Assembly (NCBI GenBank): GCA_039704465.1
Contig: JASFAU010000006.1
Coordinates: 1 to 64,000 of the forward strand
Direction of reading: 5' to 3'
DNA from: Plasmodiophora brassicae
Taxonomy: Eukaryota > Endomyxa > Phytomyxea > Plasmodiophorida > Plasmodiophoridae
DNA length: 64,000 bases
In this document: positions 1 through 23,905 of the stretch, in pieces
Layout: every line of letters starts with the position of its first letter
How positions within the stretch are numbered: the first letter of the stretch is position 1
The notes under the pieces: model-generated
The model's database searches: none
Told to the model about the DNA's origin: nothing
What the model saw: the letters and a program-made list of their open reading frames with translations, nothing else
Program-made: the position numbers and the translations under genes

Positions 1-22
1 AACCTAAGCCTAAAAAACCCTA
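1..22. repeat. Telomeric repeat remnant (CCCTAA-type, C-rich strand)
   Basis: The first 22 bases are a run of CCTAAG, CCTAAA and CCCTAA words, readable as imperfect CCCTAA units. The C-rich strand reads 5' to 3' inward, as expected for a left chromosome end. It abuts the truncated retroelement with only an AG shared at the join. The tract is very short and at the edge of the window, so its true length and exact repeat unit cannot be judged. Confidence 0.7.
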
Positions 23-1053
23 AGACGGTCTTCCATCAGACGGATGGTATTGCCATGGGCTGCAATGCCGCAGTCTATTGCGCGAACATCTACCTGAAGG
101 ACTTCGACCACCGCTTCGTGAGATGCTTCAAATACTACCGCCGATATATTGACGACATATTCGCTGTGTACATCTACGGCATCGACGCCTTGGAACGCAC
201 AGCATCAGCAATGGGCGAGTACATAGCCGGCATCACGGTTAACTTCAATTACTCCTACGACTCGGTCGACTTCCTGGACTTGACCGTCTACAAACTACGC
301 GGCCGAGCAGCGTTCAAGACCTATCAGAAGCCGAACAACTGTTACCAGTACATCCCGCCCAGCTCGTTCCACAACCCGGCCTGCATCTCGGGGTATATCC
401 GCGGGGAGTGCATCCGGTATGTACGCACGAACACATGCCTTCAAGATCGACTGGCGATGATCCTACTGTTCCGACGACGCCTTTTGGCCCGCAGCTTCAG
501 TACTGCTTTTGTCGACAACATCATCATGCGAGTCAACCCGCACGCACGAGATGAATATCTGAGGCCAAGAGTTCGTGAACGAGATGACAAAGTCATGACG
601 CTATCAATCCCGTTCAACATGTCCCCAACGACCACGGCGTTCAGAGACATGATTCGCACGTTGAACAACATGCCGACCTGTCAAGCGATCAAGCTTCAAT
701 TCAGGATTGCGTTCCAACGCAATCCAAACATTCTGGCCCTGTCATCCACATCAAACATCAGCGACAACCAGGCCACGTACTTAGCCATCCACAACAAGCG
801 CCAGCGTTTGCGCTAATCTTCAAACTCCGCCACGGTGTCCGCACGCAAATTGTTTCATAAACAACACCGCCTTCAGCGATTCGCGTCAGACGCCGGTTCA
901 GCGAGACGCCGCAGTGCTGCTGACGAACAGCTTGCGAAGCTGCAGAAAGGCAAAACGGACACCACAACATCATCTACCGTAAGCATCCACCGCAGTAGCC
1001 GAACTGCTGACGGTGTTAACAGGCACCTACGTTGCGCACCACCTTCCAAACTA
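23..1053 (+). mobile_element. Penelope-like element, copy 1 (5'-truncated, telomere-capped)
   Basis: From 23 onward the sequence matches 3081-4110 almost base for base. It begins inside the reverse transcriptase gene, just before the DGIAMG motif, and runs through the 3' untranslated region to CCTTCCAAACTAA at about 1053, where copy 2 starts. One visible difference lies near 391-406: GGG versus GTA, plus an extra G in copy 1. The 5' truncation point is fused to telomeric repeats. The 3' end faces the chromosome interior, the polarity expected when the chromosome's 3' end primes reverse transcription. Confidence 0.85.
25..816 (+). CDS. Penelope-type reverse transcriptase, C-terminal fragment (copy 1)
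   Basis: The frame is open from the truncation point to a stop at 816. It carries the PLE RT signatures TDGIAMG and the catalytic YRRYIDD, followed by a thumb region and a C-terminal tail ending in RQRLR. RT motifs before DGIAMG are missing because of the 5' truncation, so the fragment cannot encode an active enzyme. Unlike copy 2 it reads through 403-406 (GGGG) without a frame break and so preserves the intended C-terminus. No GIY-YIG endonuclease follows the RT, which places it with the endonuclease-deficient PLEs. Confidence 0.85.
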   Translation, partial: TVFHQTDGIAMGCNAAVYCANIYLKDFDHRFVRCFKYYRRYIDDIFAVYIYGIDALERTASAMGEYIAGITVNFNYSYDSVDFLDLTVYKLRGRAAFKTYQKPNNCYQYIPPSSFHNPACISGYIRGECIRYVRTNTCLQDRLAMILLFRRRLLARSFSTAFVDNIIMRVNPHARDEYLRPRVRERDDKVMTLSIPFNMSPTTTAFRDMIRTLNNMPTCQAIKLQFRIAFQRNPNILALSSTSNISDNQATYLAIHNKRQRLR

Positions 1054-1082
1054 AGCTTCTACAGCGACGTATCCTGGCGAAC

Positions 1083-1976
1083 ATGAACCACCTCTTCCCG
1101 CAGGAGGCACTCGAAGAGCTTCCCTGGCTGGCGTACAAACCGATCCAACGTCTACTGGACCGACAATGCCAGACACAGGTCAAGCTACAGTGCAATATCA
1201 ACCAGTTGGGAACGAGGCTTGCCGATATGGAAGAGTATTCCATGGATAATCCACCACCAAAGGCAATCATGGACCGATACAAGAAATCGATCCCCGCCAA
1301 GATTAGCGACCGCGAAACGCTAGGAAAAGGCTTCGAGTTCATCATGGCCTGCGAGAAACACAATCTTACGGCACGCCTCGATCAAGCTAGAGCAAAACTG
1401 ACGGAGGCGAAGGAAGAACACGAAGCCGAACTGAAAGCGAACATCGAAGCCATGGAGAATATCTGGGAGGATCGACCGGCTGCTGCGCGACGCGCGATGC
1501 TCGTGGACGACGACGACGATCACGACCCGCTCCAAGACTTCCGCAACCCTGTGGATCCACTCTACAAATGGATTCCCATCATTCGAGCAACTATCCGCAA
1601 CCACTATACTGTGCTCTTCAAGCAACAGGCCGACCAACACGCACGAGCCAAGGAAGCCAAGCGTGCCAAGTTCCAAGCCCGTCAAGCGCAGCTAGACGAA
1701 CCAGTCATGCTAAGCAAACGGGACTTGCAGAAGATGATCCCGTCGAAGAAGGACATCGAACGACTGGTCAATGAAAAGGTGGCGAAGATGCGACCGGGAA
1801 AAGGCAGCCGCCGTCAGGACGCCCAGGCTGGCGGCGGGCACGCATCTGGGCAACAACGTCAACCCCGAAGCGAAAGCCAGAGGCAACCGCACGGAACGCA
1901 ACAGCGAGGAAGAGGACGTGGACGAGGACGCGGACGAGGACGCGGAAGAGGACGCGGCCGAGCCGTACAGCAGTAA
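1083..1976 (+). CDS. PLE ORF1 protein (coiled coil, Arg-Gly-rich tail)
   Basis: About 297 residues from the ATG at 1083; the frame is also open upstream into copy 1 but lacks an earlier ATG. The N-terminal two thirds are charged and helical, with a coiled-coil-like stretch near residues 105-140 and an Asp-rich run near residue 155. The last 25 or so residues are almost pure Arg-Gly dipeptides. RG/RGG tails commonly bind RNA and G-quadruplexes, so an RNP-forming or telomere-targeting role is an inference. The stop overlaps the RT start in TAATG (1974-1978), suggesting termination-reinitiation. No named domain is recognised. Confidence 0.7.
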   Translation: MNHLFPQEALEELPWLAYKPIQRLLDRQCQTQVKLQCNINQLGTRLADMEEYSMDNPPPKAIMDRYKKSIPAKISDRETLGKGFEFIMACEKHNLTARLDQARAKLTEAKEEHEAELKANIEAMENIWEDRPAAARRAMLVDDDDDHDPLQDFRNPVDPLYKWIPIIRATIRNHYTVLFKQQADQHARAKEAKRAKFQARQAQLDEPVMLSKRDLQKMIPSKKDIERLVNEKVAKMRPGKGSRRQDAQAGGGHASGQQRQPRSESQRQPHGTQQRGRGRGRGRGRGRGRGRGRAVQQ

Positions 1977-3873
1977 TGCGGAAGATGCGACGGGACGTCT
2001 ACGTACATCGCAAGTTCCCGTCCATCCATGCAGCTAAACTACGCCGAATCCAGTACTTACCGTCGTTTGCCAACTTCAGCTTTCATAACCTACTGCCGCC
2101 GCCACTTGCCGATGACCTGCCGGATCTAAAGTTCCTTGGGTTAGGTCCCAGATTCTGCCCAAGGCCAGCAGCACCACCCGTGGCGACGTACGTCTGTAGC
2201 ATCGGCCAGTTCACGCGACGCATCAGAGTGTATGACTTCTTCCACAACGTGTGCAACATTGCCCAAAATGACGATTACGATCCACGACTACAAGCACGTA
2301 ACACGTGGCTTCCGCCGGAGAACACCGCCGGATGCCACACGGTCATCGAGTACATTAACAACAAATCCAGCGCCATCCTCAGCAACCACGTCCTAACAAG
2401 TCCGGATCGTATTACGCGGGCGATGCGCAGGCTCAGCAACGACCCACGTGTCAAGATCGTGCTGTCGGACAAAAACATGGGCATCGTCGTCCTACCAATC
2501 GAGACGTACGACGACATGGTCTGGGCGCATCTAAGTGATGGTGAGCATTACGCACACGTCGGTCCGGTTAACTGTGAACAGTGGGTCGACATTCTGAACA
2601 CATTACGTATCCGATCGGCGACTCTTATGTTCCAAGCTAAACACCTCGGTCTACTCACCAATCAAGCCAAGAACTTCCTCAATCAAGGTGACGAATCACT
2701 TCCAAAGTTCCATGTTCTTCCAAAGCTGCACAAGCGAACGCCACCAGGTGTTCCCATCCCGTCTCGTCCAATTGTCGGCGCCGTCAAATGGATCACCACA
2801 AATTGGGCGATCTTTCTAGCGACAAAGCTAGAAGCAGTCACTGTTGAACACTCCCTGAGAGACTCGACGGAACTCGTGATCGACTTCGAAAGGACTCCGC
2901 TTAACGACCAGGACCTGCTGGTTACAGGGGACGTGACCTCCCTCTACACAATGATGTCACTAGAACGTCTCTACCGAGTCGTTCGTCAAGAGCTCAGGCA
3001 GATCCACTCCGACCAGATCGCCGAGTTCATGGTAACCGTTCTGGAAGTCATTTGTAAGTCGAACTACTTTCTCTACGGCGAGACGGTCTTCCATCAGACG
3101 GATGGTATTGCCATGGGCTGCAATGCCGCAGTCTATTGCGCGAACATCTACCTGAAGGACTTCGACCACCGCTTCGTGAGATGCTTCAAATACTACCGCC
3201 GATATATTGACGACATATTCGCTGTGTACATCTACGGCATCGACGCCTTGGAACGCACAGCATCAGCAATGGGCGAGTACATAGCCGGCATCACGGTTAA
3301 CTTCAATTACTCCTACGACTCGGTCGACTTCCTGGACTTGACCGTCTACAAACTACGCGGCCGAGCAGCGTTCAAGACCTATCAGAAGCCGAACAACTGT
3401 TACCAGTACATCCCGCCCAGCTCGTTCCACAACCCGGCCTGCATCTCGGTATATATCCGCGGGAGTGCATCCGGTATGTACGCACGAACACATGCCTTCA
3501 AGATCGACTGGCGATGATCCTACTGTTCCGACGACGCCTTTTGGCCCGCAGCTTCAGTACTGCTTTTGTCGACAACATCATCATGCGAGTCAACCCGCAC
3601 GCACGAGATGAATATCTGAGGCCAAGAGTTCGTGAACGAGATGACAAAGTCATGACGCTATCAATCCCGTTCAACATGTCCCCAACGACCACGGCGTTCA
3701 GAGACATGATTCGCACGTTGAACAACATGCCGACCTGTCAAGCGATCAAGCTTCAATTCAGGATTGCGTTCCAACGCAATCCAAACATTCTGGCCCTGTC
3801 ATCCACATCAAACATCAGCGACAACCAGGCCACGTACTTAGCCATCCACAACAAGCGCCAGCGTTTGCGCTAA
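1976..3873 (+). CDS. Penelope-type reverse transcriptase (copy 2, one frameshift)
   Basis: Starts at the ATG that overlaps the ORF1 stop. Visible PLE RT motifs in order: LPKLHK near residue 245, SRPIVG, the GDVTSLYT block near residue 320, TDGIAMG near residue 377, and YRRYIDD (catalytic Asp pair) near residue 403. At 3461-3463 there are three Gs where copy 1 has four. This shifts the frame to a stop at 3517; the original frame resumes at 3514 and ends at 3873. The catalytic core is intact and about 120 C-terminal residues are displaced. No GIY-YIG domain follows. The break may be real or a homopolymer sequencing error. Confidence 0.85.
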
Positions 3874-3976
3874 TCTTCAAACTCCGCCACGGTGTCCGCA
3901 CGCAAATTGTTTCATAAACAACACCGCCTTCAGCGATTCGCGTCAGACGCCGGTTCAGCGAGACGCCGCAGTGCTG

Positions 3977-4005
3977 CTGACGAACAGCTTGCGAAGCTGC
4001 AGAAA
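3977..4005 (+). ncRNA. Hammerhead-ribozyme-like core in the PLE 3' region (candidate)
   Basis: Both PLE copies (920-948 and 3977-4005) carry CTGACGA, then a perfect hairpin CAGCTT-GCG-AAGCTG, then GAAA. This is the conserved core order of a hammerhead ribozyme (CUGANGA, stem II, GAAA), a motif known from PLEs. The base next to each core box does not pair, and I could not find a convincing stem III or a GUC-type cleavage site. The assignment is tentative. Confidence 0.3.
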
Positions 4006-4110
4006 GGCAAAACGGACACCACAACATCATCTACCGTAAGCATCCACCGCAGTAGCCGAACTGCTGACGGTGTTAACAGGCACCTACGTTGCGCACCACC
4101 TTCCAAACTA

Positions 4111-7100
4111 ACCCTCGAATCGACAGGCAACCGGCACACGTACTGAAAGGCCAGGAGAAATGCTATCAGGTGCACCTGGTTTCAGAGCAATATGGAATTT
4201 CCCGAAGGCGAACAGCACGCAGATGCACAGCAGTTCTCAGCGGACGCCGTCACCGCCGCCGACCAACTGTCAACAGCCGCGTCTCGAATCGACAGGCAAC
4301 CGGCACACGTACTGAAAGGGCGTTGGAAATGCTGTCCGATGCACCTGGTTTCAGAGCAATATGGAATTTCCCGAAGGCGAACAGCACGCAGATGCACAGC
4401 AGTTCTCAGCGGACGCCGTCGCCGCCGCCGACCAACTGTCAACAGCCGCGTCTCGAATCGACTGGCAACCGGCACACGTACTGAAAGGGCGTTGGAAATG
4501 CTTTCCGATGCACCTGGTTTCTGAGCAATATGGAATTTCCCGAAGGCGAACAGCACGCAGATGCACAGCAGTTCTCAGCGGACGCCGTCACCGCCGCCGA
4601 CCAACTGTCAACAGCCGCGTCTCGAATCGACAGGCAACCGGCACACGTACTGAAAGGGCGTTGGAAATGCTGTCCGATGCTCCTGGTTTCAGAGCAATAT
4701 GGAATTTCCCGACGGCGAACAGCACGCAGATGCACAGCAGTTCTCAGCGGACGCCGTCACCGCCGCCGACCAACTGTCAACAGCCGCGTCTCGAATCGAC
4801 AGGCAACCGGCACACGTACTGAAAGGGCGTTGGAAATGCTGTCCGATGCTCCTGGTTTCAGAGCAATATGGAATTTCCCGACGGCGAACAGCACGCAGAT
4901 GCACAGCAGTTCTCAGCGGACGCCGTCACCGCCGCCGACCAACTGTCAAGCCGCGTCTCGAATCGACAGGCAACCGGCACACGTACTGAAAGGGCGTTGG
5001 AAATGCTGTCCGATGCACCTGGTTTCAGAGCAATATGGAATTTCCCGAAGGCGAACAGCACGCAGATGCACAGCAGTTCTCAGCGGACGCCGTCACCGCC
5101 GCCGACCAACTGTCAACAGCCGCGTCTCGAATCGACAGGCAACCGGCACACGTACTGAAAGGGCAGGAGAAATGCTATCAGCTGCACCTGGTTTCAGAGC
5201 AATATGGAATTTCCCGACGGCGAACAGCACGCAGATGCACAGCAGTTCTCAGCGGACGCCGTCACCGCCGCCGACCAACTGTCAACAGCCGCGTCTCGAA
5301 TCGACAGGCAACCGGCACACGTACTGAAAGGGCGTTGGAAATGCTGTCCGATGCTCCTGGTTTCAGAGCAATATGGAATTTACCGAAGGCGAACAGCACG
5401 CAGATGCACAGCAGTTCTCAGCGGACGCCGTCACCGCCGCCGACCAACTGTCAACAGCCGCGTCTCGAATCGACAGGCAACCGGCACACGTACTGAAAGG
5501 GCGTTGGAAATGCTGTCCGATGCACCTGGTTTCAGAGCAATATGGAATTTCCCGAAGGCGAACAGCACGCAGATGCACAGCAGTTCTCAGCGGACGCCGT
5601 CACCGCCGCCGACCAACTGTCAACAGCCGCGTCTCGAATCGACAGGCAACCGGCACACGTACTGAAAGGGCAGGAGAAATGCTATCAGCTGCACCTGGTT
5701 TCAGAGCAATATGGAATTTCCCGACGGCGAACAGCACGCAGATGCACAGCAGTTCTCAGCGGACGCCGTCACCGCCGCCGACCAACTGTCAACAGCCGCG
5801 TCTCGAATCGACAGGCAACCGGCACACGTACTGAAAGGGCGTTGGAAATGCTGTCCGATGCTCCTGGTTTCAGAGCAATATGGAATTTCCCGACGGCGAA
5901 CAGCACGCAGATGCACAGCAGTTCTCAGCGGACGCCGTCACCGCCGCCGACCAACTGTCAACAGCCGCGTCTCGAATCGACAGGCAACCGGCACACGTAC
6001 TGAAAGGGCGTTGGAAATGCTGTCCGATGCACCTGGTTTCAGAGCAATATGGAATTTCCCGAAGGCGAACAGCACGCAGATGCACAGCAGTTCTCAGCGG
6101 ACGCCGTCACCGCCGCCGACCAACTGTCAACAGCCGCGTCTCGAATCGACAGGCAACCGGCACACGTACTGAAAGGGCAGGAGAAATGCTATCAGCTGCA
6201 CCTGGTTTCAGAGCAATATGGAATTTCCCGACGGCGAACAGCACGCAGATGCACAGCAGTTCTCAGCGGACGCCGTCACCGCCGCCGACCAACTGTCAAC
6301 AGCCGCGTCTCGAATCGACAGGCAACCGGCACACGTACTGAAAGGGCGTTGGAAATGCTGTCCGATGCTCCTGGTTTCAGAGCAATATGGAATTTCCCGA
6401 CGGCGAACAGCACGCAGATGCACAGCAGTTCTCAGCGGACGCCGTCACCGCACGCCGCCGACCAACTGTCAACAGCCGCGTCTCGAATCGACAGGCAACC
6501 GGCACACGTACTGAAAGGGCGTTGGAAATGCTGTCCGATGCACCTGGTTTCAGAGCAATATGGAATTTCCCGAAGGCGAACAGCACGCAGATGCACAGCA
6601 GTTCTCAGCGGACGCCGTCACCGCCGCCGACCAACTGTCAACAGCCGCGTCTCGAATCGACAGGCAACCGGCACACGTACTGAAAGGGCAGGAGAAATGC
6701 TATCAGCTGCACCTGGTTTCAGAGCAATATGGAATTTCCCGACGGCGAACAGCACGCAGATGCACAGCAGTTCTCAGCGGACGCCGTCACCGCCGCCGAC
6801 CAACTGTCAACAGCCGCGTCTCGAATCGACAGGCAACCGGCACACGTACTGAAAGGGCGTTGGAAATGCTGTCCGATGCTCCTGGTTTCAGAGCAATATG
6901 GAATTTACCGAAGGCGAACAGCACGCAGATGCACAGCAGTTCTCAGCGGACGCCGTCACCGCCGCCGACCAACTGTCAACAGCCGCGTCTCGAATCGACA
7001 GGCAACCGGCACACGTACTGAAAGGGCGTTGGAAATGCTGTCCGATGCACCTGGTTTCAGAGCAATATGGAATTTCCCGAAGGCGAACAGCACGCAGATG

Positions 7101-10100
7101 CACAGCAGTTCTCAGCGGACGCCGTCACCGCCGCCGACCAACTGTCAACAGCCGCGTCTCGAATCGACAGGCAACCGGCACACGTACTGAAAGGGCAGGA
7201 GAAATGCTATCAGCTGCACCTGGTTTCAGAGCAATATGGAATTTCCCGACGGCGAACAGCACGCAGATGCACAGCAGTTCTCAGCGGACGCCGTCACCGC
7301 CGCCGACCAACTGTCAACAGCCGCGTCTCGAATCGACAGGCAACCGGCACACGTACTGAAAGGGCGTTGGAAATGCTGTCCGATGCTCCTGGTTTCAGAG
7401 CAATATGGAATTTCCCGACGGCGAACAGCACGCAGATGCACAGCAGTTCTCAGCGGACGCCGTCACCGCCGCCGACCAACTGTCAACAGCCGCGTCTCGA
7501 ATCGACAGGCAACCGGCACACGTACTGAAAGGGCGTTGGAAATGCTGTCCGATGCACCTGGTTTCAGAGCAATATGGAATTTCCCGAAGGCGAACAGCAC
7601 GCAGATGCACAGCAGTTCTCAGCGGACGCCGTCACCGCCGCCGACCAACTGTCAACAGCCGCGTCTCGAATCGACAGGCAACCGGCACACGTACTGAAAG
7701 GGCAGGAGAAATGCTATCAGCTGCACCTGGTTTCAGAGCAATATGGAATTTCCCGACGGCGAACAGCACGCAGATGCACAGCAGTTCTCAGCGGACGCCG
7801 TCACCGCCGCCGACCAACTGTCAACAGCCGCGTCTCGAATCGACAGGCAACCGGCACACGTACTGAAAGGGCGTTGGAAATGCTGTCCGATGCTCCTGGT
7901 TTCAGAGCAATATGGAATTTACCGAAGGCGAACAGCACGCAGATGCACAGCAGTTCTCAGCGGACGCCGTCACCGCCGCCGACCAACTGTCAACAGCCGC
8001 GTCTCGAATCGACAGGCAACCGGCACACGTACTGAAAGGGCGTTGGAAATGCTGTCCGATGCACCTGGTTTCAGAGCAATATGGAATTTCCCGAAGGCGA
8101 ACAGCACGCAGATGCACAGCAGTTCTCAGCGGACGCCGTCACCGCCGCCGACCAACTGTCAACAGCCGCGTCTCGAATCGACAGGCAACCGGCACACGTA
8201 CTGAAAGGGCAGGAGAAATGCTATCAGCTGCACCTGGTTTCAGAGCAATATGGAATTTCCCGACGGCGAACAGCACGCAGATGCACAGCAGTTCTCAGCG
8301 GACGCCGTCACCGCCGCCGACCAACTGTCAACAGCCGCGTCTCGAATCGACAGGCAACCGGCACACGTACTGAAAGGCCAGGAGAAATGCTATCAGGTGC
8401 ACCTGGTTTCAGAGCAATATGGAATTTCCCGAAGGCGAACAGCACGCAGATGCAGCAGTTCTCAGCGGACGCCGTCACCGCCGCCGACCAACTGTCAACA
8501 GCCGCGTCTCGAATCGACAGGCAACCGGCACACGTACTGAAAGGGCGTTGGAAATGCTGTCCGATGCACCTGGTTTCAGAGCAATATGGAATTTCCCGAA
8601 GGCGAACAGCACGCAGATGCACAGCAGTTCTCAGCGGACGCCGTCGCCGCCGCCGACCAACTGTCAACAGCCGCGTCTCGAATCGACTGGCAACCGGCAC
8701 ACGTACTGAAAGGGCGTTGGAAATGCTTTCCGATGCACCTGGTTTCTGAGCAATATGGAATTTCCCGAAGGCGAACAGCACGCAGATGCACAGCAGTTCT
8801 CAGCGGACGCCGTCACCGCCGCCGACCAACTGTCAACAGCCGCGTCTCGAATCGACAGGCAACCGGCACACGTACTGAAAGGGCGTTGGAAATGCTGTCC
8901 GATGCTCCTGGTTTCAGAGCAATATGGAATTTCCCGACGGCGAACAGCACGCAGATGCACAGCAGTTCTCAGCGGACGCCGTCACCGCCGCCGACCAACT
9001 GTCAACAGCCGCGTCTCGAATCGACAGGCAACCGGCACACGTACTGAAAGGGCGTTGGAAATGCTGTCCGATGCTCCTGGTTTCAGAGCAATATGGAATT
9101 TCCCGACGGCGAACAGCACGCAGATGCACAGCAGTTCTCAGCGGACGCCGTCACCGCCGCCGACCAACTGTCAACAGCCGCGTCTCGAATCGACAGGCAA
9201 CCGGCACACGTACTGAAAGGGCGTTGGAAATGCTGTCCGATGCTCCTGGTTTCAGAGCAATATGGAATTTCCCGACGGCGAACAGCACGCAGATGCACAG
9301 CAGTTCTCAGCGGACGCCGTCACCGCCGCCGACCAACTGTCAACAGCCGCGTCTCGAATCGACAGGCAACCGGCACACGTACTGAAAGGGCGTTGGAAAT
9401 GCTGTCCGATGCTCCTGGTTTCAGAGCAATATGGAATTTCCCGACGGCGAACAGCACGCAGATGCACAGCAGTTCTCAGCGGACGCCGTCACCGCCGCCG
9501 ACCAACTGTCAACAGCCGCGTCTCGAATCGACAGGCAACCGGCACACGTACTGAAAGGGCGTTGGAAATGCTGTCCGATGCTCCTGGTTTCAGAGCAATA
9601 TGGAATTTCCCGACGGCGAACAGCACGCAGATGCACAGCAGTTCTCAGCGGACGCCGTCACCGCCGCCGACCAACTGTCAACAGCCGCGTCTCGAATCGA
9701 CAGGCAACCGGCACACGTACTGAAAGGGCGTTGGAAATGCTGTCCGATGCACCTGGTTTCAGAGCAATATGGAATTTCCCGAAGGCGAACAGCACGCAGA
9801 TGCACAGCAGTTCTCAGCGGACGCCGTCACCGCCGCCGACCAACTGTCAACAGCCGCGTCTCGAATCGACAGGCAACCGGCACACGTACTGAAAGGGCAG
9901 GAGAAATGCTATCAGCTGCACCTGGTTTCAGAGCAATATGGAATTTCCCGACGGCGAACAGCACGCAGATGCACAGCAGTTCTCAGCGGACGCCGTCACC
10001 GCCGCCGACCAACTGTCAACAGCCGCGTCTCGAATCGACAGGCAACCGGCACACGTACTGAAAGGGCGTTGGAAATGCTGTCCGATGCTCCTGGTTTCAG

Positions 10101-13032
10101 AGCAATATGGAATTTACCGAAGGCGAACAGCACGCAGATGCACAGCAGTTCTCAGCGGACGCCGTCACCGCCGCCGACCAACTGTCAACAGCCGCGTCTC
10201 GAATCGACAGGCAACCGGCACACGTACTGAAAGGGCGTTGGAAATGCTGTCCGATGCACCTGGTTTCAGAGCAATATGGAATTTCCCGAAGGCGAACAGC
10301 ACGCAGATGCACAGCAGTTCTCAGCGGACGCCGTCACCGCCGCCGACCAACTGTCAACAGCCGCGTCTCGAATCGACAGGCAACCGGCACACGTACTGAA
10401 AGGGCAGGAGAAATGCTATCAGCTGCACCTGGTTTCAGAGCAATATGGAATTTCCCGACGGCGAACAGCACGCAGATGCACAGCAGTTCTCAGCGGACGC
10501 CGTCACCGCCGCCGACCAACTGTCAACAGCCGCGTCTCGAATCGACAGGCAACCGGCACACGTACTGAAAGGCCAGGAGAAATGCTATCAGGTGCACCTG
10601 GTTTCAGAGCAATATGGAATTTCCCGAAGGCGAACAGCACGCAGATGCACAGCAGTTCTCAGCGGACGCCGTCACCGCCGCCGACCAACTGTCAACAGCC
10701 GCGTCTCGAATCGACAGGCAACCGGCACACGTACTGAAAGGGCGTTGGAAATGCTGTCCGATGCACCTGGTTTCAGAGCAATATGGAATTTCCCGAAGGC
10801 GAACAGCACGCAGATGCACAGCAGTTCTCAGCGGACGCCGTCGCCGCCGCCGACCAACTGTCAACAGCCGCGTCTCGAATCGACTGGCAACCGGCACACG
10901 TACTGAAAGGGCGTTGGAAATGCTTTCCGATGCACCTGGTTTCTGAGCAATATGGAATTTCCCGAAGGCGAACAGCACGCAGATGCACAGCAGTTCTCAG
11001 CGGACGCCGTCACCGCCGCCGACCAACTGTCAACAGCCGCGTCTCGAATCGACAGGCAACCGGCACACGTACTGAAAGGGCGTTGGAAATGCTGTCCGAT
11101 GCTCCTGGTTTCAGAGCAATATGGAATTTCCCGACGGCGAACAGCACGCAGATGCACAGCAGTTCTCAGCGGACGCCGTCACCGCCGCCGACCAACTGTC
11201 AACAGCCGCGTCTCGAATCGACAGGCAACCGGCACACGTACTGAAAGGGCGTTGGAAATGCTGTCCGATGCTCCTGGTTTCAGAGCAATATGGAATTTCC
11301 CGACGGCGAACAGCACGCAGATGCACAGCAGTTCTCAGCGGACGCCGTCACCGCCGCCGACCAACTGTCAACAGCCGCGTCTCGAATCGACAGGCAACCG
11401 GCACACGTACTGAAAGGGCGTTGGAAATGCTGTCCGATGCTCCTGGTTCAGAGCAATATGGAATTTCCCGACGGCGAACAGCACGCAGATGCACAGCAGT
11501 TCTCAGCGGACGCCGTCACCGCCGCCGACCAACTGTCAACAGCCGCGTCTCGAATCGACAGGCAACCGGCACACGTACTGAAAGGGCGTTGGAAATGCTG
11601 TCCGATGCTCCTGGTTTCAGAGCAATATGGAATTTCCCGACGGCGAACAGCACGCAGATGCACAGCAGTTCTCAGCGGACGCCGTCACCGCCGCCGACCA
11701 ACTGTCAACAGCCGCGTCTCGAATCGACAGGCAACCGGCACACGTACTGAAAGGGCGTTGGAAATGCTGTCCGATGCTCCTGGTTTCAGAGCAATATGGA
11801 ATTTCCCGACGGCGAACAGCACGCAGATGCACAGCAGTTCTCAGCGGACGCCGTCACCGCCGCCGACCAACTGTCAACAGCCGCGTCTCGAATCGACAGG
11901 CAACCGGCACACGTACTGAAAGGGCGTTGGAAATGCTGTCCGATGCTCCTGGTTTCAGAGCAATATGGAATTTCCCGACGGTGAACAGCACGCAGATGCA
12001 CAGCAGTTCTCAGCGGACGCCGTCACCGCCGCCGACCAACTGTCAACAGCCGCGTCTCGAATCGACAGGCAACCGGCACACGTACTGAAAGGGCGTTGGA
12101 AATGCTGTCCGATGCTCCTGGGTTCAGAGCAATATGGAATTTCCCGAAGGCGAACAGCACGCAGATGCACAGCAGTTCTCAGCGGACGCCGTCACCGCCG
12201 CCGACCAACTGTCAACAGCCGCGTCTCGAATCGACAGGCAACCGGCACACGTACTGAAAGGGCGTTGGAAATGCTGTCCGATGCTCCTGGTTTCAGAGCA
12301 ATATGGAATTTCCCGACGGTGAACAGCACGCAGATGCACAGCAGTTCTCAGCGGACGCCGTCACCGCCGCCGACCAACTGTCAACAGCCGCGTCTCGAAT
12401 CGACAGGCAACCGGCACACGTACTGAAAGGGCGTTGGAAATGCTGTCGATGCTCCTGGTTTCAGAGCAATATGGAATTTCCCGACGGCGAACAGCACGCA
12501 GATGCACAGCAGTTCTCAGCGGACGCCGTCACCGCCGCCGACCAACTGTCAACAGCCGCGTCTCGAATCGACAGGCAACCGGCACACGTACTGAAAGGGC
12601 GTTGGAAATGCTGTCCGATGCTCCTGGTTTCAGAGCAATATGGAATTTCCCGACGGCGAACAGCACGCAGATGCACAGCAGTTCTCAGCGGACGCCGTCA
12701 CCGCCGCCGACCAACTGTCAACAGCCGCGTCTCGAATCGACAGGCAACCGGCACACGTACTGAAAGGGCGTTGGAAATGCTGTCCGATGCTCCTGGTTTC
12801 AGAGCAATATGGAATTTCCCGACGGTGAACTGCACGCAGATGCACAGCAGTTCTCAGCGGACGCCGTCACCGCCGCCGACCAACTGTCAACAGCCGCGTC
12901 TCGAATCGACAGGCAACCGGCACACGTACTGAAAGGGCGTTGGAAATGCTGTCCGATGCTCCTGGGTTCAGAGCAATATGGAATTTCCCGAAGGCGAACA
13001 GCACGCAGATGCACAGCAGTTCTCAGCGGACG
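4111..13032. repeat. 169-bp subtelomeric satellite array, left block
   Basis: Tandem units of 169 bp, recognisable by TCTCGAATCGACAGGCAACC and GAGCAATATGGAATTTCCCG. Successive units start at 4192, 4361, 4530, 4699, 4868, 5035 and so on, with rare 167- or 173-bp units (for example the 4-bp insertion near 6450). About 53 units are present. Between about 5035 and 8250 variants recur every third unit (507 bp), a higher-order repeat. A variant block with AGGCCAGGAGAAATG and GGTGCACC recurs near 4169, 8395 and 10591. The array ends at the GGACG target duplication of the outer LTR element. Confidence 0.97.
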
Positions 13033-13229
13033 TGTGCTAACGCCGCCGCTGCCCACTACGGGGGCGGTCGGTCGCAAGAGTCGGCGCCTGGTGATATAAC
13101 GAACTGATGTATTTGGACAGGATCGTCACAGCAAGGGCCGCTGCGGGGTCGAGTACGGTCATGATCATGTGACCGGGTGGCAGCAGCATCTGAGCAGCAT
13201 CATCTGAGTACTGGTACTCTGGATGAACA
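13033..13229 (-). repeat. 3' LTR of the outer element (197 bp)
   Basis: Direct repeat of 23709-23905 with TG...CA ends. In element orientation this is the 3' LTR. It adjoins GGACG on its left, one half of the target-site duplication. Confidence 0.93.
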
Positions 13230-13238
13230 CTCCCCGTG

Positions 13239-13382
13239 TTAGAAATCTGCTAACAGTCGTGAGCAGAGCGGGTCTCCTTCGGCTTGTCGTTCGAGGAAGG
13301 CCCTGACGATATCAGGAACATCGGCCGCCATGACCGAGTAAGGTTCCCATGAATTGTCGGTGGCATCGAATCCGATCCAGTT
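13239..13382 (-). CDS. Outer element: severed chromodomain C-terminus
   Basis: Read on the minus strand from 13382 this encodes WIGFDATDNSWEP followed by a ...DVPDIVRAFLERQ helix, then a stop at 13239-13241. It is the second half of a chromodomain. Removing the nested element and one copy of its CAGTT duplication rejoins it in frame with the integrase at 18923 (…LLIN|WIGFD…). The nested insertion therefore cut the outer element's chromodomain in two. Confidence 0.8.
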   Translation of the reverse strand, partial: NWIGFDATDNSWEPYSVMAADVPDIVRAFLERQAEGDPLCSRLLADF

Positions 13383-13469
13383 TGTGATAACTGAATAAAT
13401 CCCGAACCCCGCGACGGACTTCGCCAGTCCGTCAAAGCGTTCGTTGCATCAGCTTGCCTGATCGTGACA
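13383..13469 (+). repeat. 5' LTR of the nested chromovirus (87 bp)
   Basis: Begins TGTGATAACTG and ends GATCGTGACA, identical to 18831-18917. It contains an 8-bp perfect inverted repeat, GACGGACT then AGTCCGTC (13413-13433), separated by TCGCC. Confidence 0.93.
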
Positions 13470-13481
13470 TTTTGACGGACT
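13426..13481 (+). promoter_or_regulatory. Self-priming pair: LTR AGTCCGTCAAA and primer-binding site TTTGACGGACT
   Basis: The PBS TTTGACGGACT (13471-13481), one base after the 5' LTR, is the exact reverse complement of AGTCCGTCAAA inside the LTR (13426-13436). In Tf1 and related elements the first 11 nt of the mRNA fold back onto the PBS and are cleaved to prime minus-strand synthesis. The match length and PBS position are the same here, predicting transcription initiation at about 13426. No tRNA-type PBS beginning TGG is present. Confidence 0.75.
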
Positions 13482-13506
13482 AACCAACGGTCACCGCCGT
13501 CCCGCC

Positions 13507-13615
13507 CGCCCCGTTCCGCCCGCTCCGTTCCGCCCGCTCCGTTCCGCCCGCTCCGTTCCGCCCGCTCCGTTCCGCCCGCTCCGTTCCGCCCGCTCCGTTC
13601 CGCCCGCTCCGTTCC
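13507..13615. repeat. 14-bp minisatellite in the nested element leader
   Basis: About seven to eight tandem copies of CCGTTCCGCCCGCT between the PBS and gag. The strand is pyrimidine/GC-skewed and produces spurious open frames in both directions. Confidence 0.9.
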
Positions 13616-13654
13616 TGCCGTCCCGTTTCCTGTCCGTCTACCGGTGTGTTCGCG

Positions 13655-14685
13655 ATGACAACGAGCGAGGACCAGATCGCCGCACTGGCAGATCAAGTGC
13701 GGGACCTCACGCTCACTGTCAGCGACATGCTGCACCAGCTGAAAGCTATGCAGTCCGTAGTGGCCGACCGGGTCGAAGATGCCGTTGGGACAGCGATAAA
13801 TCGCTCGCTGCCCGACAAGATGCCGCCGAGCGAGCCGTCGCCGACATCCCGACACATCGTCGACCACCAGATCCACCTGCCCCGCTTTACCGGGCGTATT
13901 CGCGACAGTTCCACGAACTCCCGCGACTTTCTGAAGTGTCTGTCAAGACGCTGCAGCTCCCGTCATCGACGACCCGCCTTCCGCCGGCGGCGCACAGCGC
14001 CCTTCTTAGATCGCTGGAAGGCCCGGCGTTGGAAGTCTATTTCGGGCTGCCGGACGACGCCACGATGGCCGACCTGTCCTACGCGATGTCAAAATGGTTT
14101 CCGGTGCCGACGTTCGAACAGCTGGAGGAGTGCTTCGACAACCTCACCCAGACCGAACCTGTCGAAGAGCATGTGTTGATGTTCAACAATTTGTATCAAG
14201 CGCTTCAGCGCGCGGATGCAACCTTCAAGATGAGTTCGGCCCGGCGCGCGTCGAAGTTCCGGAAGTCGCTGCATACTGCCTTGTCGGAAAAACTGTTCGA
14301 GGACATGATCACCGACTTCGACGAGATGGTCAAAAAGGCGAAACACCTCTGCCCGCGCTACCCCGTTCCGAAGGTTGTCGCCGCCGATGCCCGTGAGCGT
14401 GCCCGCAAGGACGGCCTCTGCTTCTACTGCAAAGAAGATGGCCACCGGATCGCGGATTGCCCGAAACGGCCGCCGGTTGCACCGGGAAATGTCAAGGGTG
14501 ACCGCCAACGGGTTCGCCGGCCACCCAGTAAACTCTGCATTGTCATCCGAACCCGACCCTGTTCAAATAAGCGATCTCATGTTTCTCCACGCCCGCTCTG
14601 TCCCGCATCTCGTACTTCCGATGACCATATACACCGGGTCCGAAAGTATCTCGACAACGGCCTTGATCGACTGTGGCGCGACTAG
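13655..14685 (+). CDS. gag: Nested chromovirus Gag (capsid and nucleocapsid)
   Basis: Starts at the ATG at 13655 with a short coiled-coil-like N-terminus (AALADQVRDLTLTVSDMLHQ), then a Ty3-type capsid region (…LEGPALEVYFGLPDDATM…). A CCHC zinc knuckle, CFYCKEDGHRIADC, lies near 14420. The frame changes once near 13905: the first part reads to FTGRIRDS and the capsid continues in another frame as FHELPRLSEVSV. The nucleocapsid frame stays open to 14685 but protease coding lies in a third frame, so a gag-pol frameshift or an indel lies near 14490-14530. Confidence 0.75.
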
Positions 14686-15163
14686 CAACTTTATCGACTG
14701 GTCCTTCGCGCGGCTCCACGTTCTGCCTACCCGCCCGACGCATCGTCCGATACCTGTCCGCGTTGTCGACGGCCGCCAGCTCGCACCTATATCACAGGAG
14801 ACTCAGCCGTTGAGAACGACGGTGGACGCCCAGTTCTCGTGTGAGATCGTCCTGAATCTGATCAATTCGCCGACCTATCCCGTCATCCTGGGTCTGCCCT
14901 GGCTAGCCCAGACTAATCCAGATGTGGATTGGCGCCGGCGGCTCGTCGTCGCCGCGCCAGTGCCCCCTCGCCGTCAACGTCAACGCCGACAACTGTGGCG
15001 GATCCTGGCCATGCAGAAGCTGAGACAACCGAGGCAAGCGTGGCTGCGCCACACGACGACTGCCGTTATCCGGCCCTGGACGCCTCTAGTGCAGCTCCGC
15101 TCATCGCCCAGGCGCCTGTTAACACAAAACAACATCCAGATCCAACTTCCGCACAAGACCTGA
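14495..15163 (+). CDS. pro: Nested chromovirus aspartic protease region
   Basis: A retropepsin-like domain begins near 14590, with the catalytic motif ALIDCGATSNFID (D-[CS]-G-A) and, about 80 residues later, the conserved VILGLPWL flap-end motif and NPDVDW. It follows the Gag zinc knuckle in a different frame. After about 14935 the frame degrades into a low-complexity Pro/Ala linker leading to RT. Confidence 0.75.
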   Translation, partial: RVTANGFAGHPVNSALSSEPDPVQISDLMFLHARSVPHLVLPMTIYTGSESISTTALIDCGATSNFIDWSFARLHVLPTRPTHRPIPVRVVDGRQLAPISQETQPLRTTVDAQFSCEIVLNLINSPTYPVILGLPWLAQTNPDVDWRRRLVVAAPVPPRRQRQRRQLWRILAMQKLRQPRQAWLRHTTTAVIRPWTPLVQLRSSPRRLLTQNNIQIQLPHKT

Positions 15164-15395
15164 TCGTGACACCATTGCCGCCTGCGGCCAACGATGAACG
15201 CCGGGTGGCAGAGTCCTTGGCGACAGCCGCAATTGAGACTCAGGACAAAGCCGCTGGCGACCTGGAAACGGCTGACACCGGTAACACCCCTGCGAACTGC
15301 CTCGAGCTCGAATCGTTCCCCGACCAGACAGGCTGGCTAACGTCGCCGGCGCGGGAGCAGCGACACAGGCGGGGAGCCGGTCGACGTCTACCAGA

Positions 15396-16592
15396 TTGTC
15401 GTTTGGACGACGGTTCCAGGGCACGCCAGGTGGTCAGCCTGTTCATGTGCATCCATCCATCGTGGCGGCCGCTTGGGCGCTTGCCTTCGTCACTATGTGC
15501 CGCGAACCCGCACGCGTCGACCTTCGTGCTTATCTAAACACGTCATCTGACGACGCCTGTCCGATCGCCCCGCCGAACGCCGGCCCTGACGTTCTAGCCG
15601 GAGATGCTCCACAGTCGTCGTGCGACGTACGGCCCACGGATTCTAATCAAGGCGACGGGACGCGGATCGACCACGTTCCCTTGCCGGCACCAAGCACTGA
15701 AGAACCTCTGGCGGCCAACGTTCCCATCCATCTAGTCGACGCCGAACCGTTCCTGGACGCACTCATGGACGACGCTCAGTGCTACCTCATCCATTATACG
15801 TGGACCGAGGACACCGAGTCAGAGCAGACGAAGATACCTGAAAAATACCAGGATTTTGCCGACGTGTTCGACGAGGCCACCGCCACATCCTTACCGCCGC
15901 ACCGCGCCTCTGACTGCTCGATCGACCTGAAACCGGGGACGGAGCCTCCATTCTGTCGCCTCTACGGCTTGTCTCCCCGCGAACAGGTAGCCCTCAAGAA
16001 GTATTTGGAAGATAACCTCCAGTCGAACTTCATACGGCCGTCGCGTTCATCTGCCGGCGCGCCGATCCTTTTCGCGAAGAAGAAGGATGGTTCGTTACGG
16101 CTTTGCGTTGATTACCGAGGCCTGAACTCGGTCACCGTGAAGAACCGTTACCCACTTCCGCTCATCGACCAGCTGCTTTCGACACTCGGTCAAGCAACGG
16201 TCTTCTCCAAGATCGACCTTCGAAGTGCGTACAACCAGATCCGCATTCGCGAAGGTGACGAATGGAAGACAGCATTCCGGACACCGTACGGACTGTTCGA
16301 GTACCTGGTTATGCCCTTCGGGCTTGCCAACGCCCCGGCATCCTTTCAAGCCTTCATGAACGAGACATTCAGCGACTTCATTGACCGTTTCGTTGTTGTT
16401 TACCTTGACGACATCTTGATTTTCTCCAAGAATGCTGAGGAACATGAACAGCACGTGCGTTTGGTGCTCGAACGTCTACGCTCCGCGCGCCTGACGGCCA
16501 AACTGTCTAAGTGCTTGTTCGACGCACCGGAGGTCGAATTCCTCGGCTACTTAGTGTCCAGGACGGCCTCCGGTTGGATCCCAGCCGAGTAG
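15396..16592 (+). CDS. Nested chromovirus reverse transcriptase
   Basis: A linker (about 140 residues) precedes the RT core, which starts near 15827 ([15 protein letters not shown]). Motifs in order: [56 protein letters not shown], and the catalytic [11 protein letters not shown]. The protein would end at 16592, but the true frame leaves near 16560 where a G appears to be missing (GTGTCCAGGACGG); the thumb and RNase H continue in another frame. Confidence 0.85.
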
Positions 16593-17250
16593 ACACAATA
16601 CTCGCGTGGGCCCCGCCGCGTGACCTCCACGGGCTGCAAGTCTTCCTTGGGTTCGCCAACTTCTACCGAAAGTTCATCCCGCATTTCGCGGAGATCGCAC
16701 TTCCCTTGACGAACCTTACTCGCGGGGAAACCGAATTTATCTGGAACGAGACTGCTTCGACCGCCTTCGCAACTCTGAAGAGCGCGTTCACACGCGCTCC
16801 GGTCCTCGCCCACTTCGATCCTAGCGTGCCGTGCGAGATTGAAACGGATGCCTCCGACTTCGCCATTGCCATGGTCCTCTCACAACGGGGCCGTGACGGG
16901 GACTTACACCCTCTGGCGTTCTTTTCGAGGAAACTGGACCCCGCTGAGATCGATATGCGGTCTACGACAAAGAGCTCCTGGCCGTTGTTGCGTCCTTCGA
17001 GAAATGGCGCCAGTTCCTGGATTCGGATGAACATCAGACACTTGTGCACAGCGACCACCGCAACCTCAAGTACTTCATGACGACCCACAAGCTTAATCCG
17101 CGCCAAATCCGATGGTCCCAACTGCTTAGCGGCTTCGACTTCATGATTCAGCACCGACCGGGCCGCTTGCACGGTAAACCTGACGCCTTGACGCGCCGCC
17201 CGGAGTACGTCCCGACGGCGTCTGAAGAAGGCATCCTGCAACAATCTCTC
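16511..17250 (+). CDS. Nested chromovirus RT thumb and RNase H
   Basis: Continues RT with [15 protein letters not shown], then an RNase H domain with catalytic [20 protein letters not shown], the [16 protein letters not shown] helix and [12 protein letters not shown] second missing base near 16953 (GATATGCG where GATTATGCG is expected) moves the frame between the two halves. Confidence 0.8.
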
Positions 17251-17289
17251 CAACTGCTCCCGCTTCATCGCCTAGTTCCGTCCCCCGTG

Positions 17290-18817
17290 GTGGACGCGTT
17301 CACCGTCCACGCGGAGGCGGCTCCGTCCGAGCCTCTCCTAGACCGTATCCGACGACACCAAGCGAGTGATCCGTTCGTCGCCAAGATTGCCGGTCTGCTC
17401 GACCGACCTCAAGGTAGGAAGTATTGCCTGAGAGACGGCCTCCTGTACAAAGACGCTCCTTGGTCGTCTCCGGAGACGAATGCAAGATCGAGATCCTCCG
17501 GCAACTCCACGATAATAGGGCCTCTGGTCACTTTGGTATCCGCAAAACGCTTGGGCTTGTCCAGCGTGAATTTTGGTGGCCTGGCATGAGGGCCTTCGTC
17601 AAACTGTACGTCTCATCCTGCGACATTTGTCAGAGAAGCAAGTCTCCGCGCCACAAACCGTCCGGGCTCCTGCTGCCTCTTCCCTTGCCGAGTTCTCTGT
17701 GGTCATCGATCTCAATGGATCTAATTGTCAAGCTTCCAGTTTCCGACGGCTACGATTCGGTCCTCGTCGTCGTCGACCGGTTTTCGAAAATGGCCCACTT
17801 CATTCCGTGCAAGGAGACCCTCACAGCGGTCGAGCTGTCCGACCTGTTTTTGCAGCAGATATTCCGCCTGCATGGCCTACCGGACGACATCGTCTCCGAC
17901 CGGGGGCCCCAGTTCGTGTCGGCCTTCTGGAAGCACTTACTGGACCGTCTTGGTATCCAACAACGGAACTTGTCTTCATCCCGGCACCCGGAATCCGACG
18001 GCCAGACGGAACGCGTGAACCAGATCCTCGAACAATACTTACGCTGCTATGTTAGCTACATGCAGGACGACTGGCTGCAACTTCTGCCTATGGCCGAGTT
18101 CGCGTACAACAACGCCGACCATTCGGCCACCGGCATGTCGCCGTTTTTCGCCAACTACGGGTTTCATCCAAGGGTGACGGAGCCTCGACCCAGGAATGGC
18201 CAAGTCTGTAACCCAGCCGCCGATGAGCGTGCCGAATTCTTGAGAAGGTTCGCCGCTACTTGAAGGGCCAACTGCAACGGGCGGTCGACGCTATGAAGCG
18301 CTCTGCGGATCGCCGTCGCCGCGAACCACCACCACTGCAGGTGGGCGATCTCGTCATGCTCAGGCGTGGAACCTTATCGACTGGCCGCCCGTGCGGGAAA
18401 CTGGATGACCGTCTGCTGGGACCCTTCCAAGTTGTTCGCACAGTTAACCCCGTCGCATACGAAGTGAAGCTGCCTCCTACCTCGCGCCTACATAACGTCT
18501 TCCATGTGTCACAGCTGGAACCGTATACGCCTAATGTCCTTCCACATCGCCAACAGCCACCGCCGCCGCCCATTGTATTGGAAGATGACGACCAGCCCCT
18601 GTTCATCGTTAAGTCGATCTTGGATTCCCGATACCGGTCGGGGCGGTTGCAATATCTCATAGATTGGGAAGGATACTCCCCGTCCGATCGCACCTGGGAA
18701 CCCGCGGGCAATCTCCATGGGACAGGAGGCCTGGACCAAGCGATTGCTGAATTTCATGCTCGATATCCCGATAAACCTGGCCCTCGCTCCCGAAACCGGC
18801 GGAGACCCAATCGCTAG
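17290..18817 (+). CDS. Nested chromovirus integrase with C-terminal chromodomain
   Basis: The His-His-Cys-Cys zinc domain includes GHFGIRKT and CDICQRSK. The catalytic core has D at [10 protein letters not shown] at VSDRGPQF and E at [11 protein letters not shown] (D-D-E). A GPF/Y-like module (LLGPFQVV…[10 protein letters not shown]) follows, then a chromodomain near 18590-18710 (YLIDWEGY…TWEP) and an Arg-rich tail ending at 18817. Two frame changes occur, near 17455 and near 18240. Chromodomains of this group steer integration toward histone-marked chromatin. Confidence 0.85.
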
Positions 18818-18830
18818 AAGAGGACTATTC

Positions 18831-18917
18831 TGTGATAACTGAATAAATCCCGAACCCCGCGACGGACTTCGCCAGTCCGTCAAAGCGTTCGTTGCATCAG
18901 CTTGCCTGATCGTGACA
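18831..18917 (+). repeat. 3' LTR of the nested chromovirus (87 bp)
   Basis: Identical by eye to 13383-13469 and followed by CAGTT (18918-18922), the second half of the target duplication. Confidence 0.93.
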
Positions 18918-18922
18918 CAGTT

Positions 18923-20425
18923 GATCAGTAGTTCAGTGTCACCTGACGTAGAGTTGACTCGAATGTCCTCGACTGCGTTGACTTGGTAAGCCACGCCGGT
19001 GAGCGCGATGTTGTGCTTCAGGGAAGAGGTGACATTCAAGTGCGCATCTGCATAGAACATTAAGCGCTGGGCGTGTACATCTGAGATACGATCAGTCAAG
19101 AGATCTCGAACTCGATACACCCAGTCGTTGATGGTGTCGATAATCTGGGCAGGTCCAGTCCAGTTGTACTCGGACTTGGAGTGCTTGCCATGGTTGGCCA
19201 CGAGAACATAGTCGCCCGTCGTGAAGTTGATCTCGCGAACATTGCGTCGGCGACGCCGGGCGCGTTGCTTGAGATCACGTAGATGGGTGCGTGTACGTGC
19301 CACTGCTTTGTGCATGTCCTCGAGAGAATCGATAAGTTCCGTCGTCATTTCCTTGAGACGGTCAGGGGTCAACGGTACGTCGATAACCGCGTCGATGCGT
19401 TTGTTGAAGATAATCGAGATAGGTGTCGAGGGTGGCAAACCCGTAAACATCGTGACAGGCGCGTAGCCCACACTTGATCGAACAGTGTGATTTACCGTCA
19501 TGTTGATCAGCGGAAGGACATACGGCCAATCCTGGAATGGAAGATTTAGCTCGGAGAGGAGGGACTTCAGCAGAAAGAGAAGCCGCTTGTTGACAACCTC
19601 AACCGTGCCGTTCGCCCAAGGTGTGTAGGCAGTTGTGAAATGATGGTTGCAGTGTAACCGGCTATTAAGCTCGGCGATAACCGCGTTTTTGAAGTGTGTG
19701 CCGCGGTCAGAGACATGTTGGAAAACAATGCCGAAACGTTTGAACCAATCCAGAAGAGATTCGGCGACAACGCTGTGATCCGCGAATTGACAAGGAATTA
19801 ACTCGACGAATGCCGTGGCGTCGTCCTTCAGAACCAGAACATAACGAAGTTGATGAGAATCGCCTGGACGAGGTTTGGATAAGAACAGAAAGTCATAGTG
19901 GATGACCTTATTGGGCTTGTCCGCATGCATAGCCGTGCCAAAAGGTCGGGGAATCATCGAATCTTTGTTGCGTAGGCAGTGTAAGCATTTGTCCACAAAT
20001 GCACGAACAAAGGAATCCAGATCAGGCCACCAGAAGAGTTGTGCGATGCTCGAAATAGTCGATGCAGCAGGTTGATGACCAGACAGTCCCATATGTGAAA
20101 TCACTGCGATGCGTAGCTGCAGTGCATGTGATGGTACCCAGAGTTGATTGTCTGGAGTACGCCAGCCAGATTCCGGGCTAAGGTGGAGAGACATGTCCCC
20201 TTCGAGTTGGAGAATATCGGAAACGGCAGATAGGTCGTGTTGGCGAATGTAGTCGGTCTGAGCGTTACTAATCTCGTCGACAGACGGCCAGATAAACTCA
20301 TCGGTCATCTTGTAATCGTCGAAGTCAAGATTAATTGCCATATGACGAATAGAACGGAACGATGGAGGGAAAATGAGGAGAGTGGTTGCAGGGCGACGCC
20401 CCACCGCGTGGCGAGGTCGGCCCAA
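18923..20425 (-). CDS. Outer element integrase (chromodomain cut by nested insertion)
   Basis: Read on the minus strand from about 20380. The zinc domain includes HMGLSGHQPA and CLHCLRNK. The core has D at HYDFLFLSKP, D at SDRGTHFKN and E in WANGTVEVVNK. A GPF-like module (YNWTGPAQIIDTINDWVYRV) and the first half of a chromodomain (VEDIRVN…DTELLIN) follow. The frame is then interrupted at 18922 by the nested element; its remainder is at 13239-13382. The WANGTVEVVN form of the core resembles gypsy lineages described in oomycetes and early-diverging fungi. Confidence 0.85.
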
Positions 20426-21926: not shown

Positions 21927-21931
21927 CCGGT

Positions 21932-23665: not shown

Positions 23666-23708
23666 TAAGTGAGTTCGTTTGCTTGGGGCTCTTTGCGCAA
23701 GAAGCTTC

Positions 23709-23905
23709 TGTGCTAACGCCGCCGCTGCCCACTACGGGGGCGGTCGGTCGCAAGAGTCGGCGCCTGGTGATATAACGAACTGATGTATTTGGACAGGATC
23801 GTCACAGCAAGGGCCGCTGCGGGGTCGAGTACGGTCATGATCATGTGACCGGGTGGCAGCAGCATCTGAGCAGCATCATCTGAGTACTGGTACTCTGGAT
23901 GAACA
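23709..23905 (-). repeat. 5' LTR of the outer element (197 bp)
   Basis: Identical by eye to 13033-13229. In element orientation it is the 5' LTR. GGACG follows at 23906-23910 and rejoins the satellite in register. Confidence 0.93.

Follow-up and report, generated by a model that had tools for sequence, protein, structure and literature searches.

We analysed the first 64,000 nucleotides of contig C6 (JASFAU010000006.1) of Plasmodiophora brassicae, hereafter the window, which form the left end of this contig in an assembly of 25.34 Mb and 21 contigs. Directly beneath the telomere, the window carries two head-to-tail copies of a Penelope-like element (PLE) with a PLE-type reverse transcriptase (RT), and a second such pair lies at the left end of contig C12. 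We assign a probability of about 0.7 to the reading that these are copies of an endonuclease-deficient PLE that adds to chromosome ends. What we observe are the position of the copies, their orientation and truncation, their joins to telomeric repeats, a precise 3' end and the lack of any endonuclease found.

The arrangement of telomere (1-23), truncated PLE (23-1053), longer PLE (1054-4110) and satellite (from 4114) had been proposed in an earlier note on this DNA and is real. Its features are (window coordinates, strand):

1..23, strand not assigned: variable telomeric C-strand repeat, capping the left end of C6; the repeat is common to 12 other contig ends
23..1053, +: PLE copy A, 5'-truncated within the RT gene (element positions about 2028-3057), 99.7% identical to copy B over 1,031 columns
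24..816, +: RT frame of copy A, C-terminal part including the stop
1054..4110, +: PLE copy B, the longest one found genome-wide; minimum length 3,057 bp (borders +/- 3 bases)
1083..1976, +: open reading frame 1 (ORF1), 297 aa, with an RG-rich tail at its end
1976..3873, +: ORF2, PLE-type RT; its ATG and the ORF1 stop overlap
3874..4110, +: 3' untranslated region, from whose final ~190 nt some parts recur alone at non-terminal loci
4109..4113, strand not assigned: TAACC, between element core and satellite
4114..13032, +: 169-bp subtelomeric satellite array, present at other chromosome ends too

Copy B had been called nearly complete. It is indeed the longest copy, but its ORF2 frame is interrupted in the assembly (open to 3517, open again 3301-3873), and 1054/1055 is only a possible 5' start of the element. 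Its core ends with ...CCTTCCAAAC at 4108 (+/- 3 bases). For ORF1, the scoring of 8,000 candidates gave no homologue at E<=1e-3. Likewise, window positions 1-4500 yielded no hammerhead ribozyme (Rfam, E<=5; also none at the gathering score), and a self-comparison of the element revealed no terminal repeats or pseudo-LTRs (long terminal repeats) at E<=1e-3. A conserved RNA fold of the 3' region was considered but not retained as evidence (single-sequence z of -0.37, covariation term of the alignment fold only -0.49). The conserved 3' core (window 3926-4110) contains GTAAGC ... CTGAC ... TTAACAG, which, going by consensus motifs, may be a short retained intron.

Long copies at chromosome ends

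A genome-wide DNA search with the element gave at least 33 matches, of which four exceed 1 kb, namely the window pair and the following:

C12 left end, 81-2669 and 2670-3795: head-to-tail PLE pair, 5' ends toward the telomere

All four copies are terminal and have their 5' ends outward. Their 5' starts differ throughout (element positions of about 1, 457, 1936 and 2028), and both outer copies are joined directly to telomeric repeats at different truncation points; the telomeric tract has 80 bases at C12 vs 23 at C6. A single orientation, a terminal location and variable 5' truncations under a telomeric cap are in line with the interpretation in the earlier note (4/4 long copies, 4/4 long copies and 2/2 outer copies, respectively).

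The 3' end ...CCTTCCAAAC is precise in 4/4 copies. At C6, it is followed by the 5' end of the next copy and, after TAACC, by satellite; at C12, by the truncated end of the next copy and by a diverged subtelomeric gene-family sequence. One two-base substitution and four short indels are all that distinguishes the four copies, such that the underlying events look recent. Given their differing 5' ends and four different 3' flanks, they do not look like one duplicated block. No empty site was found for the C12 pair, whose flank belongs to a diverged family, the best long match elsewhere being 71%. The outermost 4.11 kb of 40 contig ends add up to 0.65% of the nuclear genome, i.e., two such loci would fall there by chance with a probability of ~4e-5.

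Among 40 nuclear contig ends inspected, 13 carry the capping repeat (variable CCTAAAA/CCCTAAAA), not counting the doubtful right end of C4, and a PLE lies directly beneath it at two of these 13. Beside 20 other contigs, the assembly holds one of 114,743 bases (23% GC in its first 10 kb). For comparison, the P. brassicae genome paper, as far as its text was available to us, gives T4AG3 as the telomere type and describes for e3 an assembly of 25.1 Mb with 20 nuclear contigs and one mitochondrial contig (114,663 bp), with telomeres at both ends of 13 contigs vs our 13 capped ends out of 40 (PMC6823432). The number of T varies strongly among telomere units: within 12 capped contig ends, TTTTAGG accounts for 34/104 units vs 12/104 for the published TTTTAGGG. 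Homopolymer errors in the assembly possibly contribute to this variation.

The reverse transcriptase and the missing endonuclease

The RT matches PF00078 with E-values of 0.001-0.008 only, i.e., under the family cut-off. We collected 88 homologues. The intact homologue P0001 (632 aa) is 98% identical to the window's ORF2, and the next 37 relatives follow at 34-47% identity. D319, D412 and D413 (P0001 numbering) are invariant across 25 aligned RTs of the 88, and we take them to be catalytic, going by RT motifs. On this ground the enzyme classifies as a PLE-type RT, a name that draws on such motifs and on two GIY-YIG-bearing relatives rather than on a labelled reference. A homologue tree covers 82/88 sequences, none of them a named reference. 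Candidate clades for the element would be Athena (see below) and Coprina, the endonuclease-deficient PLEs of fungi and protists.

That neither RT is followed by a GIY-YIG domain, as previously claimed, holds. The ORF2 stop lies only 237 bp before the end of the element, so neither copy has room for an endonuclease. PF01541 (GIY-YIG) had no genome-wide match at E<=1e-3 (3 candidates scored). Among precomputed Pfam domains, GIY-YIG is carried by 2/88 homologues and is absent from the 38 closest.

We also considered whether the PLE RT is the telomerase (TERT) and rejected this candidate: Pfam reports no telomerase RNA-binding domain for P0001 or the window RT (RVT_1 match only), and a separate TERT RNA-binding domain lies on C16 (two matches above the cut-off, one containing two TGA). 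Among solved structures, Drt3a gives the best match (E 0.025). NCBIfam matches are far under cut-off throughout, i.e., Drt2, Drt3a and group II intron RT for both P0001 and P0002, with Drt4 in addition for P0001 and retron St85 RT for P0002. For viral contigs, none of 83 pattern matches was confirmed as a relative, and no relatives were found in plasmids.

A second, distant PLE-like RT is found at C18:38565 (L064 970-2052) and C13:1132370, about 36-40 kb from chromosome ends and 5' outward in both cases; at C18, LINE sequence (long interspersed nuclear element) follows it.

Proposed terminal addition and its alternatives

From these observations, we infer a primer, an order of events and an activity of the element as follows. 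At a broken or eroded tip, the RT would copy the element RNA from an exposed DNA 3' end. The cDNA would extend outward, such that the 3' end of the element comes to face the centromere, and copying would often halt early, which would produce the 5' truncation that is observed. The new end could then be extended by a second copy, yielding a head-to-tail pair, or be capped by telomerase, yielding the joins seen at both outer copies. Most of the 3' joins involve DNA other than telomere, such that priming does not require a telomeric end. They do not support the G-rich overhang proposed before as primer, and a non-telomeric end left by breakage suits them better. The data agree with the published model for endonuclease-deficient PLEs (Athena type), in which an exposed 3' terminus (deprotected telomere or break) primes the synthesis and a telomere is later added to the truncated 5' end (PMC3846280, in the sections available).

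Several observations weigh against terminal addition. The 3' junction shows no recognisable telomeric tract in 4/4 copies, TAACC being the best, which does not support the predicted location of 3' ends beside telomeric repeats. The element is present at only two chromosome ends, such that the orientation is weak evidence by itself (chance of 1/16 if all four copies are independent), and copy B in the window has an interrupted RT frame. Endonuclease-bearing PLEs form partial tandems too (PMC11167929, in part), i.e., head-to-tail pairing alone is not diagnostic. Finally, at least 17 loci away from the ends hold short 3'-end pieces of the PLE lineage, in both orientations. The earlier note had named copies at mostly internal sites, in both orientations and with target duplications, as evidence that would speak against its interpretation. 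The short pieces and one 40-bp repeat are partly of this kind, but no copy above 1 kb was found internally among the matches listed. Taken together, that interpretation is partly supported.

Of the 29 matches left after the four long copies, 26 are 3'-end pieces at the 17 loci; the other three, found at two loci, are older remnants of coding sequence. Diverged coding relatives lie inside chromosomes in both orientations. The piece at C7:18071 is 18 kb away from the contig end, the other 16 loci at least 58 kb. Pieces of the current family are found at C5:211219 (100%) and C4:371840 (99%), while a 45-base piece at C5:1391094 shows 96% identity and the remaining pieces 77-93%. Example loci are:

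L050 270-438; L052 251-549; L056; L062: short 3'-end pieces (stubs)

The 17 loci split into eight single pieces and nine inverted pairs. Within the pairs, the 3' sides point outward in 9/9 cases according to coordinates and strands (4/9 read in sequence). Both arms reach the 3' end in the C8 pair only, a 297-bp palindrome with a possible 10-12-base imperfect repeat judged by eye. Seven of the nine pairs have one common layout and are probably one amplified family. All eight single stubs were examined for target duplications. At C5:211219, a perfect 40-bp direct repeat borders the piece, whose 169 bp match the terminal copies without a difference; the other seven have shared strings of 5-9 bases only and no clear duplication. 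The C5 site lies within a tandem array containing truncated units, such that a 40-bp target duplication is its simplest reading among several. We fetched 12 of the 17 stub loci (ends are approximate for diverged copies), and the furthest-5' arm starts at element positions 2866-2901 in 11 of them and at 2981 for C4. The preferred piece length is near 170 nt, with a core of ~145 nt well conserved in ten aligned sequences. A SINE-like family (short interspersed nuclear element) having a PLE tail is a possible source of the stubs, in line with the common 5' start.

The internal pieces would also agree with an RT that is primed by whatever DNA 3' end is free, including those at internal breaks. The RT that would add to chromosome ends may occasionally be primed at such breaks and leave short 3' stubs only. 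As a tentative and rather doubtful extension, the endonuclease-free RT could be a general end-filler that leaves one-direction copies at the tip and only the last ~170 nt at internal double-strand breaks. A tip would offer a single free 3' end and an internal break two facing ones, which would result in single stubs with fill-in duplication or, if both break ends are primed, in outward inverted pairs. Hypothetically, such double priming could explain the outward inverted stubs, as suggested by the C8 pair and the C5 duplication. For a canonical PLE protein, cleavage and extension of both target strands are described (PMC11167929, in part). The end-filler idea is weakened by clear duplications in only 1/8 single stubs and by arms that both reach the 3' end in only 1/9 pairs.

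For the terminal pairs themselves, we consider it unlikely that partial PLE tandems entered subtelomeric DNA through conventional retrotransposition (at a break or with the endonuclease of another element) and were only later broken within and healed by telomerase, which would make the terminal position secondary. Partial head-to-tail tandems are usual in PLEs (PMC11167929, in part), the 3' flanks are satellite and gene-family DNA instead of telomere, and the C5:211219 stub has its 40-bp flanking repeat. Yet it would be a coincidence if two independent breaks had hit both of the long arrays found while leaving no long copy inside the genome, and no GIY-YIG was found genome-wide, though LINE APE endonucleases exist.

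Quite improbable is a spread of PLE blocks between the two ends by subtelomere recombination or break-induced replication after a single original retrotransposition. The near-identity of all four copies would suit it, and block duplication does exist for another element (the same LINE/LINE junction occurs twice at the C3 right end), but all four 3' junctions and 5' truncation points differ and the flanks are unrelated. An assembly artefact, i.e., collapsed repeats joined to telomere reads, is the least credible: the short tract of only 23 telomeric bases at C6, the indels between copies and the interrupted RT frame would be in line with it, but C12 repeats the arrangement with an 80-base telomere and different junctions.

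Other terminal elements and known systems

The genome contains a separate LINE with APE endonuclease and RT. A search with the last 905 bases of one copy returned nine matches with at least 92% identity and two further matches that are weak fragments. The nine are:

C14, C3, C9, C16, C17, C13 left ends; C5, C3 right ends: LINE copies (L021, L011, L016, L023, L024, L020, L069, L070, L068)

Their 3' ends are located within 9.6 kb of a contig end in 9/9 cases, 5' outward, and read CTAAAACCCTAA, with A runs of varying length, up to the flanking DNA; the CTAAAACCCTAA letters may be telomere at the target or a constant element end. The copy at the C14 left end is 5'-truncated and telomere-capped. 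Eight of the nine junctions look independent, while a stub at the C3 right end repeats its neighbour's junction. A control, namely another LINE family from these subtelomeres, occurs in mixed orientation and has internal copies. The terminal LINE is probably telomere-targeted. It is like the PLE in polarity and truncation, but telomeric letters at the 3' junction occur in the LINE alone. In this genome, the chains at chromosome ends are built from at least two kinds of retroelement.

The 169-bp satellite is common to many subtelomeres (C6, C10, C14, C17 and C18 left; C5, C12, C13 and C16 right) and is directly capped by telomere at the C12, C13 and C16 right ends. In the window, the array is split by an insert at 13033-23905, which is bounded by two identical 197-bp direct repeats (13033-13229, 23709-23905). 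This insert encloses a second identical direct-repeat pair of 87 bp (13383-13469, 18831-18917) and probably represents nested young LTR retroelements.

Among known systems we compared Athena, reportedly first described by Gladyshev and Arkhipova (2007). Athena shares with the present element a PLE RT without GIY-YIG, the chromosome-end location, 5' truncation and a telomere on the truncated 5' end. Athena elements are PLEs of bdelloid rotifers that lack an endonuclease and are associated with telomeres (PMC3846280, PMC5537684), and two consecutive copies occur with the subtelomeric LINE Hebe in one head-to-tail chain (PMC2861651). In contrast to our copies with at most TAACC, the 3' end of most Athena copies carries a short telomeric stretch (PMC5537684), and A. 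vaga harbours GIY-YIG PLEs next to Athena (PMC3846280), while none was found here. Endonuclease-deficient PLEs of fungi and protists form a distinct clade, with genomes of both groups holding only such PLEs (PMC3846280); they are alike in the absent endonuclease, the protist host and the lack of any endonuclease-bearing PLE found. Canonical GIY-YIG Penelope/Poseidon elements (PMC11167929) have the RT type and partial tandems in common with ours and differ from it, as it has no endonuclease, no hammerhead at E<=5 and no detected terminal repeat. Zepp, Gil and MoTeR share the telomeric location, and Gil also one-direction head-to-tail arrays with some 5' truncations (PMC5537684), but they are LINEs, which this genome's terminal LINE resembles and the PLE does not. 

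PLEs that lack an endonuclease and are associated with telomeres have been described in animals, fungi, protists and plants (PMC3846280, in part). For Plasmodiophora or Rhizaria, we found no published report of this PLE among titles and abstract openings, the species list of the 2007 Athena description being outside this comparison, and the main text of the P. brassicae genome paper, so far as available, does not mention Penelope (PMC6823432). The mechanism that we propose is of a type already described in other organisms.

PLE RTs and telomerase have a common ancestor (PMC3846280, in part), and endonuclease-free PLEs are a natural model for the way in which a retroelement RT could serve chromosome ends. 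With its compact 25-Mb genome, a telomerase gene, no GIY-YIG PLE found, near-identical terminal PLEs and an apparently telomere-specific LINE, P. brassicae would make this model testable by an end-by-end comparison of isolates. The non-terminal 3' stubs would reveal the action of such an RT at ordinary breaks; if the end-filler idea is true, the genome would keep a record of breaks that a telomeric retroelement has repaired.

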